A stretch of 64,000 nucleotides of DNA from Spirochaetota bacterium (GCA_003246895.1 QKCL01000019.1:1-64000); one strand, 5' to 3'; positions 10,674-14,900 are shown, counted from the stretch's first letter. Notes: generated by a model not told the origin, from the sequence alone. A program made the numbers and translations.

Positions 10674-11051
10674 GTGAAAAATGTTTCAATACTAATGGCT
10701 TTATTGTTCTCTTTCACTGTATCCTGCAGCAGCGTCTTTCTTCCCTCAATTTTTTCAGACCCGGTATTTGTCGGTTCAAAACAGAACGGATTTAAACAGT
10801 GCAGAGATTGCACAGTTTCACCGGAGAAGGCATATGAACTTGCGGAACCTTTCCTTGAAAGAACCCATGAACTGAGAAATGCAGTGAGAAACTTTCCTTC
10901 ACACAGGCTTAACATGGATGACTATATTCTCCTTAAGGGCAGGTATTATTACATTGCACGTGACAACTATCCCTACAAAACATGGTGGGCATACTTTAAC
11001 CATGCAGTGAGGGTCAACTGCATGACAGGAGAAGTGAAGGAGCCGGAGTAG
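10674..11051 (+). CDS. Small predicted lipoprotein, unknown function
   Basis: I do not recognise a family. The GTG at 10674 follows a strong GGAGGAGG (10661-10668) by 5 bases, giving 125 residues; the longer frame from 10569 would place that site inside the gene. The N-terminus is a signal peptide ending FTVSC, a plausible lipobox, followed by a Ser-rich linker. The mature part contains HRLNMDDYILLKGRYYYIAR and a short Trp/Tyr-rich region. It is the first gene of a same-strand run that continues with DUF3592, TIGR04222-like and radical SAM genes, with gaps of 49, 0 and 9 bp. Confidence 0.75.
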   Translation: MKNVSILMALLFSFTVSCSSVFLPSIFSDPVFVGSKQNGFKQCRDCTVSPEKAYELAEPFLERTHELRNAVRNFPSHRLNMDDYILLKGRYYYIARDNYPYKTWWAYFNHAVRVNCMTGEVKEPE

Positions 11052-11100
11052 AACTTTTCTGCCGGTATTGAAACTGAATTTTGTTTTCAGGGGTAATTGA

Positions 11101-11700
11101 ATGACAGGAATTCTTGGGGTAATCAAAAAAAATTTTCCATACACTGCCGGTGCACTTGCACTGGTCACAGGATTATTTGCACATTCCTCATGGTCTCTTG
11201 CCGTAAAATATGAACAGAAGGAACTGCCCATGATCATTGACAGCATGAAATGGCCGTCAGTTTCCGGCAGGATAACCGGCCACGATATAGCGGAAGTGGA
11301 AAGCGGGCGTCTGTCACACAGTCCTAAAACGGCTTATTATGCAGAACCTGCATACTCCTACATTGTGAACGGTAAGAATTATTCAGGAAAAAAGTTAAGC
11401 TTCCTCCATGCCAACAACGGTACAGGAATCAAACGGGAAGACGCAGAAAAAATACTGAAAAAATACCCTGTGGGAACAATTGTCAGGGTTTACTACTCTC
11501 CTGCAAAACCATCAGTCAGTACATTGATTCCCGGAAACAGGGAAATGGAGAAAGGTCTTGCCGGTGAAATATCATCTTTTTATTCTTTCTTTATGCTCTT
11601 TACCGGAATATCAGTAGTTCTCATTATAGCAACGGTACTGACAGCTGAAGAATTCAGAAGTTCAGAAAAAAAAAATAATAATATACAGAGGAGACAATAG
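11101..11700 (+). CDS. DUF3592 membrane protein
   Basis: A 199-residue protein with one TM near each end (about 15-35 and 155-178) and an extracytoplasmic beta-rich middle. The middle matches the DUF3592 pattern: WPSVSGRI near residue 51, a YSYIVNGKNYSGKKL segment, and YPVGTIVRVYYSPAKPS near residue 122. Members are usually uncharacterised envelope proteins. Its stop codon abuts the start of the next gene (TAG at 11698-11700, ATG at 11701), so it is co-translated with the Cys/Gly-tailed protein and probably works with it. Confidence 0.85.
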   Translation: MTGILGVIKKNFPYTAGALALVTGLFAHSSWSLAVKYEQKELPMIIDSMKWPSVSGRITGHDIAEVESGRLSHSPKTAYYAEPAYSYIVNGKNYSGKKLSFLHANNGTGIKREDAEKILKKYPVGTIVRVYYSPAKPSVSTLIPGNREMEKGLAGEISSFYSFFMLFTGISVVLIIATVLTAEEFRSSEKKNNNIQRRQ

Positions 11701-12630
11701 ATGTTAGATCTTATCGAATCCATACCGGGACCTGTTTTTCTTGCGGTATATTTATTCTACGCCGTTGCTGTTATTTTAATAATGAAAAAATTAGCCGCTG
11801 GAAATGCCGGATATTCCGGTATGCCTGTGGAACCGACCAGCCTGTCGCCGGTTGAGCTGTCCATTCTTGGAAACGGGACAAGGGGGGCAGTGGTTACAGC
11901 TGTTTTTTCACTTTGGGAGAAGGGGCTGGTAGACGTTTCATCGGAAGACGGAAAGGTAAAGATAATTCCGAAAAAAGGTGACCGGAAAGGGCTTAACTCC
12001 ATTGAAAGTTCAATATATGACAGGGCATCGGGAACTGATACCTTCCTGAAAGATCTTACCGGAAGCGGTTTTGCCGCCAGTGCTGAAAACATTACAGCTG
12101 CTGAACGCGGCAGGCTTGTAAATCTCGGCCTTCTCCCTGACATTGCAATGATAGACCGGCACCGGAATGCATCGGCGGGTGCGGTGATTCTGCTGATTGT
12201 ATTCGGAGGAATAAAACTTTTTCTGGGAATTTCAAATGAGAAACCTGTGACTTTTCTGCTAATACTGATGGTGATATCAGTCATTGCCGCTGTTTTCATG
12301 ATCAGAAAAAAAAGCATGTCCGCCACAGAATCCGGGAAGAGACTTCTCGAGAGGTCCAGGACCAGGTTCAGTCATCTTAATCAGGCAGAATCCGGAAAGT
12401 CAGTACTTTCAAACAAAGACCTTCTCTACGGCGCTGCACTTTTCGGAATCTCCGGACTTGCGGGCGGTGCAATTCTCGGGGAGCTGGGTGATGTGGCCCT
12501 CCTTGACAAAGGTTTAAAGTCATCGTCCGGGACCGGTTCAGGGTGCGCGTCCTGTTCAGGGGGATGTTCAGGTGACGGAGGTTCAGGAGACGGCTGCGGC
12601 GGCGGCTGCGGCGGCTGCGGAGGAGATTAG
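11701..12630 (+). CDS. TIGR04222-type membrane protein with Cys/Gly-rich tail
   Basis: A 309-residue protein. There is an N-terminal TM (about 12-30), then a soluble region containing LSPVELSILGNGTRGAVVTA and two further hydrophobic segments (about 160-177 and 181-201). I match this layout to the TIGR04222 family from memory. The last 36 or so residues are almost only Gly, Ser, Asp and Cys, with six cysteines in CASC, GGC, DGC, GGGC and GGC contexts. AGGAG about 8 bases before the ATG supports the start. The next gene, 10 bp on, is a radical SAM/SPASM enzyme, the kind that modifies Cys- or Gly-rich peptide tails. Tail modification or metal binding is inferred; the family has no established function that I know of. 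Confidence 0.82.
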   Translation: MLDLIESIPGPVFLAVYLFYAVAVILIMKKLAAGNAGYSGMPVEPTSLSPVELSILGNGTRGAVVTAVFSLWEKGLVDVSSEDGKVKIIPKKGDRKGLNSIESSIYDRASGTDTFLKDLTGSGFAASAENITAAERGRLVNLGLLPDIAMIDRHRNASAGAVILLIVFGGIKLFLGISNEKPVTFLLILMVISVIAAVFMIRKKSMSATESGKRLLERSRTRFSHLNQAESGKSVLSNKDLLYGAALFGISGLAGGAILGELGDVALLDKGLKSSSGTGSGCASCSGGCSGDGGSGDGCGGGCGGCGGD

Positions 12631-12639
12631 AAACAGGGA

Positions 12640-13641
12640 ATGTCTTCCTTCGCAAAATTTACATTCCAGTGGCACATAACAGACGCCTGCAATCTTAAAT
12701 GTCTGCACTGCTATCAGGAGAGTCATGAACGTAATCATACGCCTTTTCATGACCTGATGAAGATTCTGGACAGTATTGAAAACTTCACCCAAAGGCTCAG
12801 GAGAACAGAACGATTTCACATTAACCTCACAGGAGGAGAGCCCTTTCTCCACCCCGACTTCTTTAATCTTCTCAACGAAATCGTAAAAAGAAAAAGGTTC
12901 ACCTTCGGCATTCTCACAAACGGTTTCATTACAGGTCCCGATCATTTTGAAAAGCTGAAGAGGCTGAGTCCCTCGTCTGTTCAGGTCAGTGTTGAAGGAT
13001 CGAAAAGGACACATGAACTGATCCGTGGAAAGGGAACATACGGGAAAGTGAAGGAGTCCATGAAACTTTACAGAAGAAATAACATTCCTTTCATGGTCTC
13101 TTTTACTGCAAACTCAAAAAATTACATGGAATTTTCACATGCCGCGGGACTTGCGAAAAGATCCGGCGCATTCAAGGTCTGGACCGACCGGTATATCCCT
13201 TCAGGTAAGGATGACCCTCTCTGTCTCAGCATGGAAGAAGCCGGGGAATATTTCAGATTTATCTGTAAGGAGAAAAGAAAAAGAGGGCTGAACCCATTTC
13301 AGAAAACAGAAATAGCTTCACACAGGGCCCTGCAGTTTATTGAATGCGGCGGCGCTCCATACAGCTGTTCCGCCGGGAACAATCTTCTTTGCATAATGCC
13401 AAACGGCGATGTTTATCCCTGCCGCAGAATGCCTCTATTGTCAGGGAATGTCCATGATCAGGGCATAGCTGAAATTTATGAAAAGAGCACTCTCCTGCAG
13501 AAACTGAGGAAAAGAGAAATACCTGCCATGTGCAGGTCATGCTATTACAGGGATTCATGCAACGGGGGACTCAAATGCCTCTCATTCTCCATGACAGGTA
13601 CACCATTCCTGGGTGACCCGCATTGCCCAATTGGCAAATGA
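12640..13641 (+). CDS. Radical SAM/SPASM-domain protein
   Basis: A 333-residue radical SAM enzyme. The SAM-cluster motif CNLKCLHC sits at residues 17-24, followed by NLTGGEPFLHPDF (the GGE motif). The C-terminal third has a SPASM-like cysteine set: CGGAPYSCSAG, CIMPNGDVYPCRR, then CRSCYYRDSC and further Cys residues before the end, enough for one or two auxiliary 4Fe-4S clusters. Such enzymes typically cross-link or epimerise peptides, or mature other enzymes. The start lies 9 bp after the Cys/Gly-tailed membrane protein, and GGAGGAG inside that gene's last codons may serve as its ribosome site. The tail of that neighbour is the obvious candidate substrate, but this is inference. Confidence 0.9.
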   Translation: MSSFAKFTFQWHITDACNLKCLHCYQESHERNHTPFHDLMKILDSIENFTQRLRRTERFHINLTGGEPFLHPDFFNLLNEIVKRKRFTFGILTNGFITGPDHFEKLKRLSPSSVQVSVEGSKRTHELIRGKGTYGKVKESMKLYRRNNIPFMVSFTANSKNYMEFSHAAGLAKRSGAFKVWTDRYIPSGKDDPLCLSMEEAGEYFRFICKEKRKRGLNPFQKTEIASHRALQFIECGGAPYSCSAGNNLLCIMPNGDVYPCRRMPLLSGNVHDQGIAEIYEKSTLLQKLRKREIPAMCRSCYYRDSCNGGLKCLSFSMTGTPFLGDPHCPIGK

Positions 13642-13754: not shown

Positions 13755-14900
13755 ATGAAATTTGGTAAACTGATGCATCTTAATGTATACACTGCACTAC
13801 TGTTTTCCGCAGCCCTGATGAGTTTCTCCTGCTCAAATCCTCCTGCATCTGAAAAGGAGCCTTCATATTCAGTTTCAGAACTGGTCCAGGCGTCCCGGGA
13901 CGGGGATCTGAAAAGGGTAAAATCTGTTTTAAAGGATGTGAAGGAGACGGGACGGTACGGTGACCTTGCACTGCTCAGGGCAGCCGAAAAGGGCCGTCTT
14001 GAAGTGATAAAATATCTCATGGGTAAAGGTGCAGTGGTAACTGTTCTGGAGGATCCCGACAGATCAGCCCTCTCCGCTGCTTCATGGCACGGCCATATGG
14101 GGACAGTGAAATTTCTTCTGGAGAAGGGTGTAGACCCTGATCTGGGCGGAGGAAAGCCTCTGATCAGTGCATGTACAAACGGTCATATTGAAATTGTCAG
14201 GCTTCTGTTGAAGTCCGGTGCAAGGGCTGACGGAGTTGAAGGGAGCAGGCTGAAGCCGCTGGTCACTGCATGTGTCTTCGGCCGTTACAGTATAGCTGAA
14301 CTGCTGCTGAAGTCGGGAGCTGACGTCAACCGCAGGGAAAATCCCGGCGGTACGGCACTGATAGCTGCCTGCAGTTCTTCACTGTTTAAGGGGAGTGAAA
14401 AAACCAGAACCGCGGCAATGCTCCTGAAAGCCGGTGCTGACCCCAATATCAGGGAGGATTACAGCGGAAAGACTGCACTTATCGCCCTGAAATACTGGGA
14501 CGAACCCGGGAGAAGCCCGTCATATGAAGTGGTGAGCCTCCTTCTGGAAAAGAGGGCACTGGTGAATGTTCAGGACAGGGAAGGGAGGACGGCACTCATG
14601 AATGCAGCAAACGTTTCCAACCTGAAGGCAGTGCAGCTTCTTCTCAAAGCCGGCGCTGATGTGCATCTGAAAAGTTCGGAAGGGAAAACCGCGTTTATGC
14701 TCGCGGCAGGTACAGAAAACCCAAACAGAAAAAAAGATTCCATGGAAATATTGAAACTCCTTTTAAAATCCGGCAGTGAAATAAACCTTAAGGATAAAAA
14801 TGGGTACACAGCCGTTGATTATGCCGGCATGCACCACTGGACAGAAGAGGTCTCTGAATTTCTCAGGGCTCATGGGGGCAAGGGTAGATTTCAGAATTGA
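13755..14900 (+). CDS. Ankyrin-repeat lipoprotein
   Basis: A 381-residue exported protein. The signal peptide ends in LMSFSC, a lipobox, so it is likely lipid-anchored. From about residue 45 to the end there are nine or so ankyrin repeats of about 33 residues, recognisable from G-HIEIVRLLLKSGA, KSGADVNRRENPGGTALIAA and KAGADVHLKSSEGKTAFMLA. The repeats form a protein-binding solenoid, here on the periplasmic or surface side. It may belong with the preceding radical SAM group, but the 113-bp gap with AT-rich sequence suggests its own promoter. Confidence 0.9.
   Translation: MKFGKLMHLNVYTALLFSAALMSFSCSNPPASEKEPSYSVSELVQASRDGDLKRVKSVLKDVKETGRYGDLALLRAAEKGRLEVIKYLMGKGAVVTVLEDPDRSALSAASWHGHMGTVKFLLEKGVDPDLGGGKPLISACTNGHIEIVRLLLKSGARADGVEGSRLKPLVTACVFGRYSIAELLLKSGADVNRRENPGGTALIAACSSSLFKGSEKTRTAAMLLKAGADPNIREDYSGKTALIALKYWDEPGRSPSYEVVSLLLEKRALVNVQDREGRTALMNAANVSNLKAVQLLLKAGADVHLKSSEGKTAFMLAAGTENPNRKKDSMEILKLLLKSGSEINLKDKNGYTAVDYAGMHHWTEEVSEFLRAHGGKGRFQN

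Follow-up and report, generated by a model that had tools for sequence, protein, structure and literature searches.

We identified, in a Spirochaetota genome, a pair of adjacent genes that probably forms a two-gene protein-tail modification module, consisting of a membrane protein with a Gly/Ser/Cys-rich C-terminal tail (the carrier) and a dedicated radical SAM/SPASM enzyme. Judged from sequence and gene neighborhood, the enzyme very probably acts on this tail. The pair belongs to a run of four genes in the window, that is, the whole 64,000-nucleotide stretch of DNA that was analyzed (Table 1), and all four open reading frames lie where the preliminary description had placed them.

Table 1. 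Features of the gene run in the window
Feature	Length	Position	Strand	Basis
Candidate small lipoprotein, GTG start at 10674	125 aa	10674..11051	+	...SFTVSC/SS
DUF3592 protein	199 aa	11101..11700	+	PF12158, 59.2 bits (cut-off 25.3)
TIGR04222 (near_uncomplex) membrane protein	309 aa	11701..12630	+	NCBIfam TIGR04222
C-terminal tail, proposed enzyme substrate	residues 273-309	12517..12627	+	sequence
Radical SAM/SPASM enzyme, proposed tail-modifying enzyme	333 aa	12640..13641	+	Pfam Radical_SAM, SPASM

The carrier scores 124 bits against the NCBIfam TIGR04222 profile (cut-off 43), which places it in this family, and also shows a weak, below-cut-off match to DUF2207_C; it is the only TIGR04222 copy in its genome. 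Its final 36 residues, SSSGTGSGCASCSGGCSGDGGSGDGCGGGCGGCGGD, are mostly Gly, Ser and Asp and end in GCGGCGGD. They contain six Cys with Asp close by, so that the tail noticed in the preliminary description is indeed present, and it is of the Cys-rich, low-complexity C-terminal kind found in MNIO-type TIGR04222 systems. Hydropathy analysis of the carrier indicates three to four hydrophobic segments. In the AlphaFold model (pLDDT 73.5), TM1 (~10-34) is followed by a soluble helical/beta-hairpin domain (residues 50-141), TM2 (~148-178) and TM3 (~184-203), then by short helices up to residue 274 and by the tail, which is disordered (pLDDT < 50). A fold search of the PDB with this model and a plasmid search with the carrier each returned no match.

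The tail is likely to face the cytoplasm. In carriers of the lipoprotein-like and TPM types, a signal peptide is followed by one TM, and therefore the tail must lie inside; for the TIGR04222 carriers, the assignment is based on three strong TMs. In the window carrier, only short broken helices were modeled at residues 238-254 beyond the three long TM helices. Nevertheless, a weak fourth hydrophobic segment (241-259, score 1.78; below 1.5 at the equivalent place in L023 and L018) counts against regarding the cytoplasmic topology as settled. Positive-inside counts in the 15-residue flanks are frequently tied, so the argument for a cytoplasmic tail does not rest on charge alone. Such a location would suit a cytosolic, oxygen-sensitive enzyme. 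It differs from the periplasmic location proposed in 2025 for TIGR04222 tails on the basis of AlphaFold-based reasoning (PMC12452194).

The enzyme gene starts closely downstream of the carrier gene, as described earlier, with a gap of 9 bases between the carrier stop, which ends at 12630, and the ATG at 12640. Both the Radical_SAM and the SPASM matches of its product exceed their Pfam cut-offs, and the auxiliary-cluster cysteines ascribed to it are all there: the CxxxCxxC motif (C17/C21/C24) and seven SPASM cysteines (C243, C261, C298, C301, C307, C313 and C329). These 3 + 7 positions are unchanged in the nine aligned members of its clade. The enzyme core begins at residue 6, leaving no space for an N-terminal RRE domain, and no Pfam RRE match was found in the enzyme, the DUF3592 protein or the lipoprotein. 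In the NCBIfam search, the enzyme passed no profile cut-off: the best profile was SbtM (TIGR04082; 156 of 350 bits), with the ACGX system (TIGR04340; 139 of 400 bits), the PapB ranthipeptide maturase (NF047865; 97.7 of 340 bits) and StsB (82 of 625 bits) scoring lower. Because SPASM enzymes without a linked tail also reach 127-151 bits on the SbtM profile, best profile matches alone leave the chemistry unfixed. The structural model (pLDDT 84) matches SkfB, SuiB, anSME, CteB and PqqE. Among the nearest solved folds are those of SkfB (6efn) and CteB (5wgg), which form thioethers, but fold likeness in the predicted model does not distinguish between thioether and heterocycle formation.

The pairing of this enzyme clade with the tail is conserved far beyond chance. 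An alignment search with the window enzyme against 84,980 GTDB species genomes returned 80 loci, and the eight closest relatives (36-42% identity; from Nitrospina, a Spirochaetota MAG, Thiotrichaceae, three Ruminococcus, Electrothrix and a betaproteobacterium) all adjoin a membrane protein with a Gly/Ser/Cys tail. The Spirochaetota MAG (G166, locus L024) belongs to the same order as the window genome. In the enzyme tree, the window enzyme falls within a nine-member clade (support 100/97), every member of which is tail-linked, and the tail label requires 3 changes on this tree compared with 14.9 in shuffles, none of 500 shuffles being as low. A separate sample of 331 genomes yielded two strong enzyme matches (440 and 480 bits), both tail-linked, one of them in the Electrothrix genome (G397) already found by the GTDB scan, and 26 next-best loci (223-265 bits), none of which is tail-linked. 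Altogether, all 12 clade members whose flanks could be read, from Spirochaetota, Nitrospinota, Pseudomonadota, Thermodesulfobacteriota and Bacillota, are tail-linked, against 0 of 26 other loci (Fisher p 4e-10, relatedness ignored). The pairing was also recovered from the opposite side, by searching for TIGR04222 in Pseudomonadota, where a window-type enzyme lies 3 bases downstream of the carrier in G708 and G788. Together, these results make the probability of a chance neighborhood practically nil. In two further genomes, G792 and G752, the enzyme opens a contig and the carrier contig ends within the tail; with the assembly breaks falling in the Gly-rich tail (L128, L133, L156 and L159), draft genomes probably yield too low a count of tail-enzyme pairs.

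The tail and the enzyme persist while the remainder of the carrier changes, which makes the tail very probably the substrate. Beside window-type enzymes, TIGR04222 carriers were found in the window, L023, L025, L028, G708, G788 and G1355, and TPM-domain carriers with a signal peptide in L026, L029 and L030; in G166 the carrier is of the signal-peptide or lipoprotein type with a single TM, and in L027 it is small, with about three TMs. The G166 scaffold recurs in the Elusimicrobia locus L047 (43% over 119 aa) beside a radical SAM enzyme of a different lineage. The end of the tail is the best-conserved feature. A terminal CGGC is shared by all 16 aligned TIGR04222 proteins regardless of the type of enzyme next to them, as revealed by the tail alignment that had been suggested as a check, and GCGGC occurs near the end of 23 of 28 tails (8 of 12 window-type, 6 of 6 SbtM and 9 of 10 MNIO loci), compared with about 2% of shuffled tails. 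The neighbors of the tail Cys are always Gly, Ser or, rarely, Ala, and CxxC spacings are common. The number of Cys drops to one in L026 and to two in L025 and G708, so a reaction involving many Cys is not general.

Several observations concern the carriers themselves. The Ruminococcus TPM-domain proteins with Cys tails lie at L029:7158-7982, L030:7169-7993 and L026:99-1433, and in L030 the tail and enzyme genes are followed by a gene for a MoxR-like AAA ATPase. In L047, a gene for a DUF2207_C membrane protein (L047:158-2065) immediately precedes those for the tail carrier and its radical SAM enzyme, hinting at a common role of DUF2207, TPM and TIGR04222 proteins. Six TIGR04222 Cys tails (L113, L120, L121, L123, L124 and L125) have no modifying enzyme within 1.5 kb, and 4 of these 6 genomes contain an unlinked MNIO. 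A peptide of 60 aa that ends in TDCSHCGDSCHGDGECGGDGD is encoded at L068:2096-2278, a short distance upstream of the gene for an ACGX/SbtM-like radical SAM enzyme, and is a free-peptide counterpart of the membrane-protein tails.

Three further enzyme lineages adjoin the same type of tail, namely SbtM, MNIO and the L047 enzyme. Tails are paired with true SbtM in the Spirochaetota G174 and G158, which belong to the same order as the window genome, and with MNIO in the Spirochaetota G176. The six tail-linked enzymes of this second radical SAM clade score 428-513 bits for SbtM, all above the cut-off of 350. Their profile alignments begin only at about position 196; of the N-terminal region, the tail-less SbtMs L052 and L074 keep a larger share. 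A tree that groups the window clade and the tail-linked SbtMs together was rejected (p-AU 3.3e-7), so that these separate clades look like separate recruitments. The identification of the window enzyme itself as SbtM was likewise rejected on its profile score and this tree test, and thus the chemistry is not transferable by homology. MNIO adjoins 12 sampled TIGR04222 loci (one from Spirochaetota, nine from the phylum sample around Acidobacteria G405 and two around Polyangiaceae G403), and none (PF05114) was found in the window genome. Among 13 genomes with both tail and radical SAM enzyme, 11 lack MNIO, one gave a weak match and one, G395, carries a full-length MNIO gene elsewhere in the genome in addition to the tail-enzyme pair. 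In 12 further Pseudomonadota and Acidobacteriota genomes with TIGR04222, MNIO is present in 5 and the window-type enzyme in 4, with no overlap.

We propose that the C-terminal tail would serve as a built-in RiPP-like core peptide that, after membrane insertion of the carrier (three TMs, N-out/C-in), remains on the cytoplasmic side, where the enzyme, with SAM and its auxiliary clusters, may oxidize tail Cys flanked on both sides by Gly or Ser (Gly/Ser-Cys-Gly/Ser). As the product, a 5-thiooxazole, with four H lost per Cys, would be the likeliest; we make this assignment tentatively, by analogy, and give it somewhat less than an even chance. SbtM has been reported to turn Cys into 5-thiooxazole with the loss of four hydrogens (PMC11002830, PMC12538549), and MNIO enzymes form the same thiooxazole heterocycle in bufferins and related metallophores (PMC12538549, PMC12668002). 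Because members of the SbtM and MNIO families adjoin such tails, the simplest assumption is that the window enzyme also makes thiooxazole, and tails with one or two Cys fit a single-residue reaction. As a speculation, the modified tail might bind a metal such as copper or sense redox or thiol stress at the membrane face.

The main competitor of a heterocycle, unlikely but deserving attention, is that the enzyme introduces thioether bridges (sactionine or ranthionine) that link Cys sulfur to carbons of Gly, Ser or Asp, so that the tail would become a cross-linked knot. This is the chemistry of many SPASM peptide maturases, thioether formers are among the nearest solved folds, and the window tail has Asp near Cys. 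However, several clade tails lack Asp, so that Asp-dependent thioethers are rejected as a general rule, and one tail has a single Cys; furthermore, the PapB and StsB scores are far below their cut-offs, and the same tails are paired with MNIO enzymes, which are reported to convert Cys into a heterocycle. That the tail stays unmodified and binds a metal or cluster, with the enzyme directed at a different region of the carrier, at some other protein or at a small molecule, is improbable. The common CxxC spacings and the existence of Cys tails with no adjacent enzyme would agree with it, but unrelated domains replace the rest of the carrier while tail and enzyme are retained, one or two Cys alone make a poor metal ligand, and three further enzyme lineages (SbtM, MNIO and the L047 enzyme) adjoin the same tail type.

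The preliminary description had also included the DUF3592 protein and the lipoprotein in the system. The four genes are closely spaced and, as had been noted, the DUF3592 stop (11698-11700) directly abuts the carrier ATG at 11701, so the DUF3592 gene is probably co-transcribed with the tail protein gene; a scan for promoters and terminators gave results at chance level only. Nevertheless, that all four genes form a single functional system is very doubtful, given that no homologue of either protein was found at any other fetched locus, including those of the other clade members. The two were therefore rejected as conserved partners and, by this comparison, appear not to be part of the conserved unit. 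An open reading frame does head the run, but its identity as a lipoprotein is no more than plausible, with no family match in NCBIfam or Pfam. Thus, of the co-occurrence that had been proposed as a check, the radical SAM subfamily and the tail protein recur together in five phyla and DUF3592 does not; likewise, the SPASM-tail pairing withstood two of the findings that had been named as counting against it, the neighborhood and the tail both being conserved, except for the DUF3592 and lipoprotein genes.

Other genes were observed around the tail loci. Directly 3' of the window enzyme, 13755-14900 encodes an ankyrin-repeat protein with a lipoprotein-like signal, which shows no sign of module membership. 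A nucleotidyltransferase-like gene (~250 aa) recurs beside window-type, SbtM and MNIO tail loci (L018:8629-9381, L109:713-1459, L023:9059-9814 and about 15 further tail loci); its motif, GS...DIN/DVN/DLN, suggests that the second catalytic Asp is perhaps degenerate. A K+ channel with TrkA-N domains is encoded between the tail gene and SbtM in G174 and G158, and such channel-like proteins (L018:10312-11793, full-length; L020:9793-11541; L109:3439-3693, cut) adjoin SbtM-type and one MNIO-type tail locus, which raises the possibility that the modified tail is connected with ion flux. Neither gene adjoins the window pair.

The tail of a multi-TM protein, regarded in the preliminary description as an unusual substrate, had already been proposed as such, since Cys-rich tails of TIGR04222 membrane proteins were put forward as MNIO substrates in 2025 (PMC12452194); in that paper, radical SAM appears only within the reference list. 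The window locus shares with the TIGR04222-MNIO loci the carrier family, a Gly/Ser/Cys tail ending GCGGC and an adjacent enzyme gene, but has a radical SAM/SPASM enzyme in place of the multinuclear iron oxidase, in a genome without MNIO. The radical SAM/SPASM architecture is common to the window enzyme and SbtM (thio(seleno)oxazole maturase); however, SbtM is reported to act on a precursor peptide rather than a membrane-protein tail, and the two are not sisters in the tree. The sactipeptide and ranthipeptide maturases SkfB, CteB and PapB resemble the window enzyme in the SPASM domain, Cys-containing substrates and a similar fold, but act on small free precursors, usually with an RRE, whereas the candidate substrate here is a 309-aa membrane protein and no RRE was found. 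The ACGX system also combines a related SPASM enzyme with a Cys/Gly-rich target, but the window enzyme scores well below its cut-off, and the relative at L068 adjoins a free peptide. Compared with RiPPs sensu stricto, the candidate substrate is the end of a full-sized protein, not a small free precursor with a leader, and the window has no RRE in or beside the enzyme.

In the open-licence literature, we found no publication on a pairing of radical SAM enzymes with TIGR04222 tails, an absence that is no proof, and nothing linking the TPM domain or DUF2207 to radical SAM, nor anything on TIGR04082. As far as checked, what is new comprises the clade of radical SAM/SPASM partners, the exchange of carriers and of enzymes, and the probable cytoplasmic location of the tail.

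To conclude, the pairing names an enzyme for the tails in genomes without MNIO and offers a testable prediction for TIGR04222 proteins, whose role is not assigned. In addition, we see an even chance of a general bacterial module, in which Gly/Ser/Cys tails on unrelated membrane proteins would be modified cytoplasmically by interchangeable, independently recruited enzymes (the SPASM clade, SbtM, the L047 lineage and MNIO) converging on one Cys-derived heterocycle; these unrelated iron enzymes would then have converged on one substrate. RiPP-type chemistry has mostly been studied on small cleaved peptides. The pairing widens the idea of peptide-modifying enzymes whose targets include the tails of full-sized proteins, and a SPASM clade in the same slot as MNIO and SbtM would put RiPP-type chemistry in the working structure of membrane proteins. 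If the general module is true, full-length membrane proteins carry this chemistry as a permanent part.
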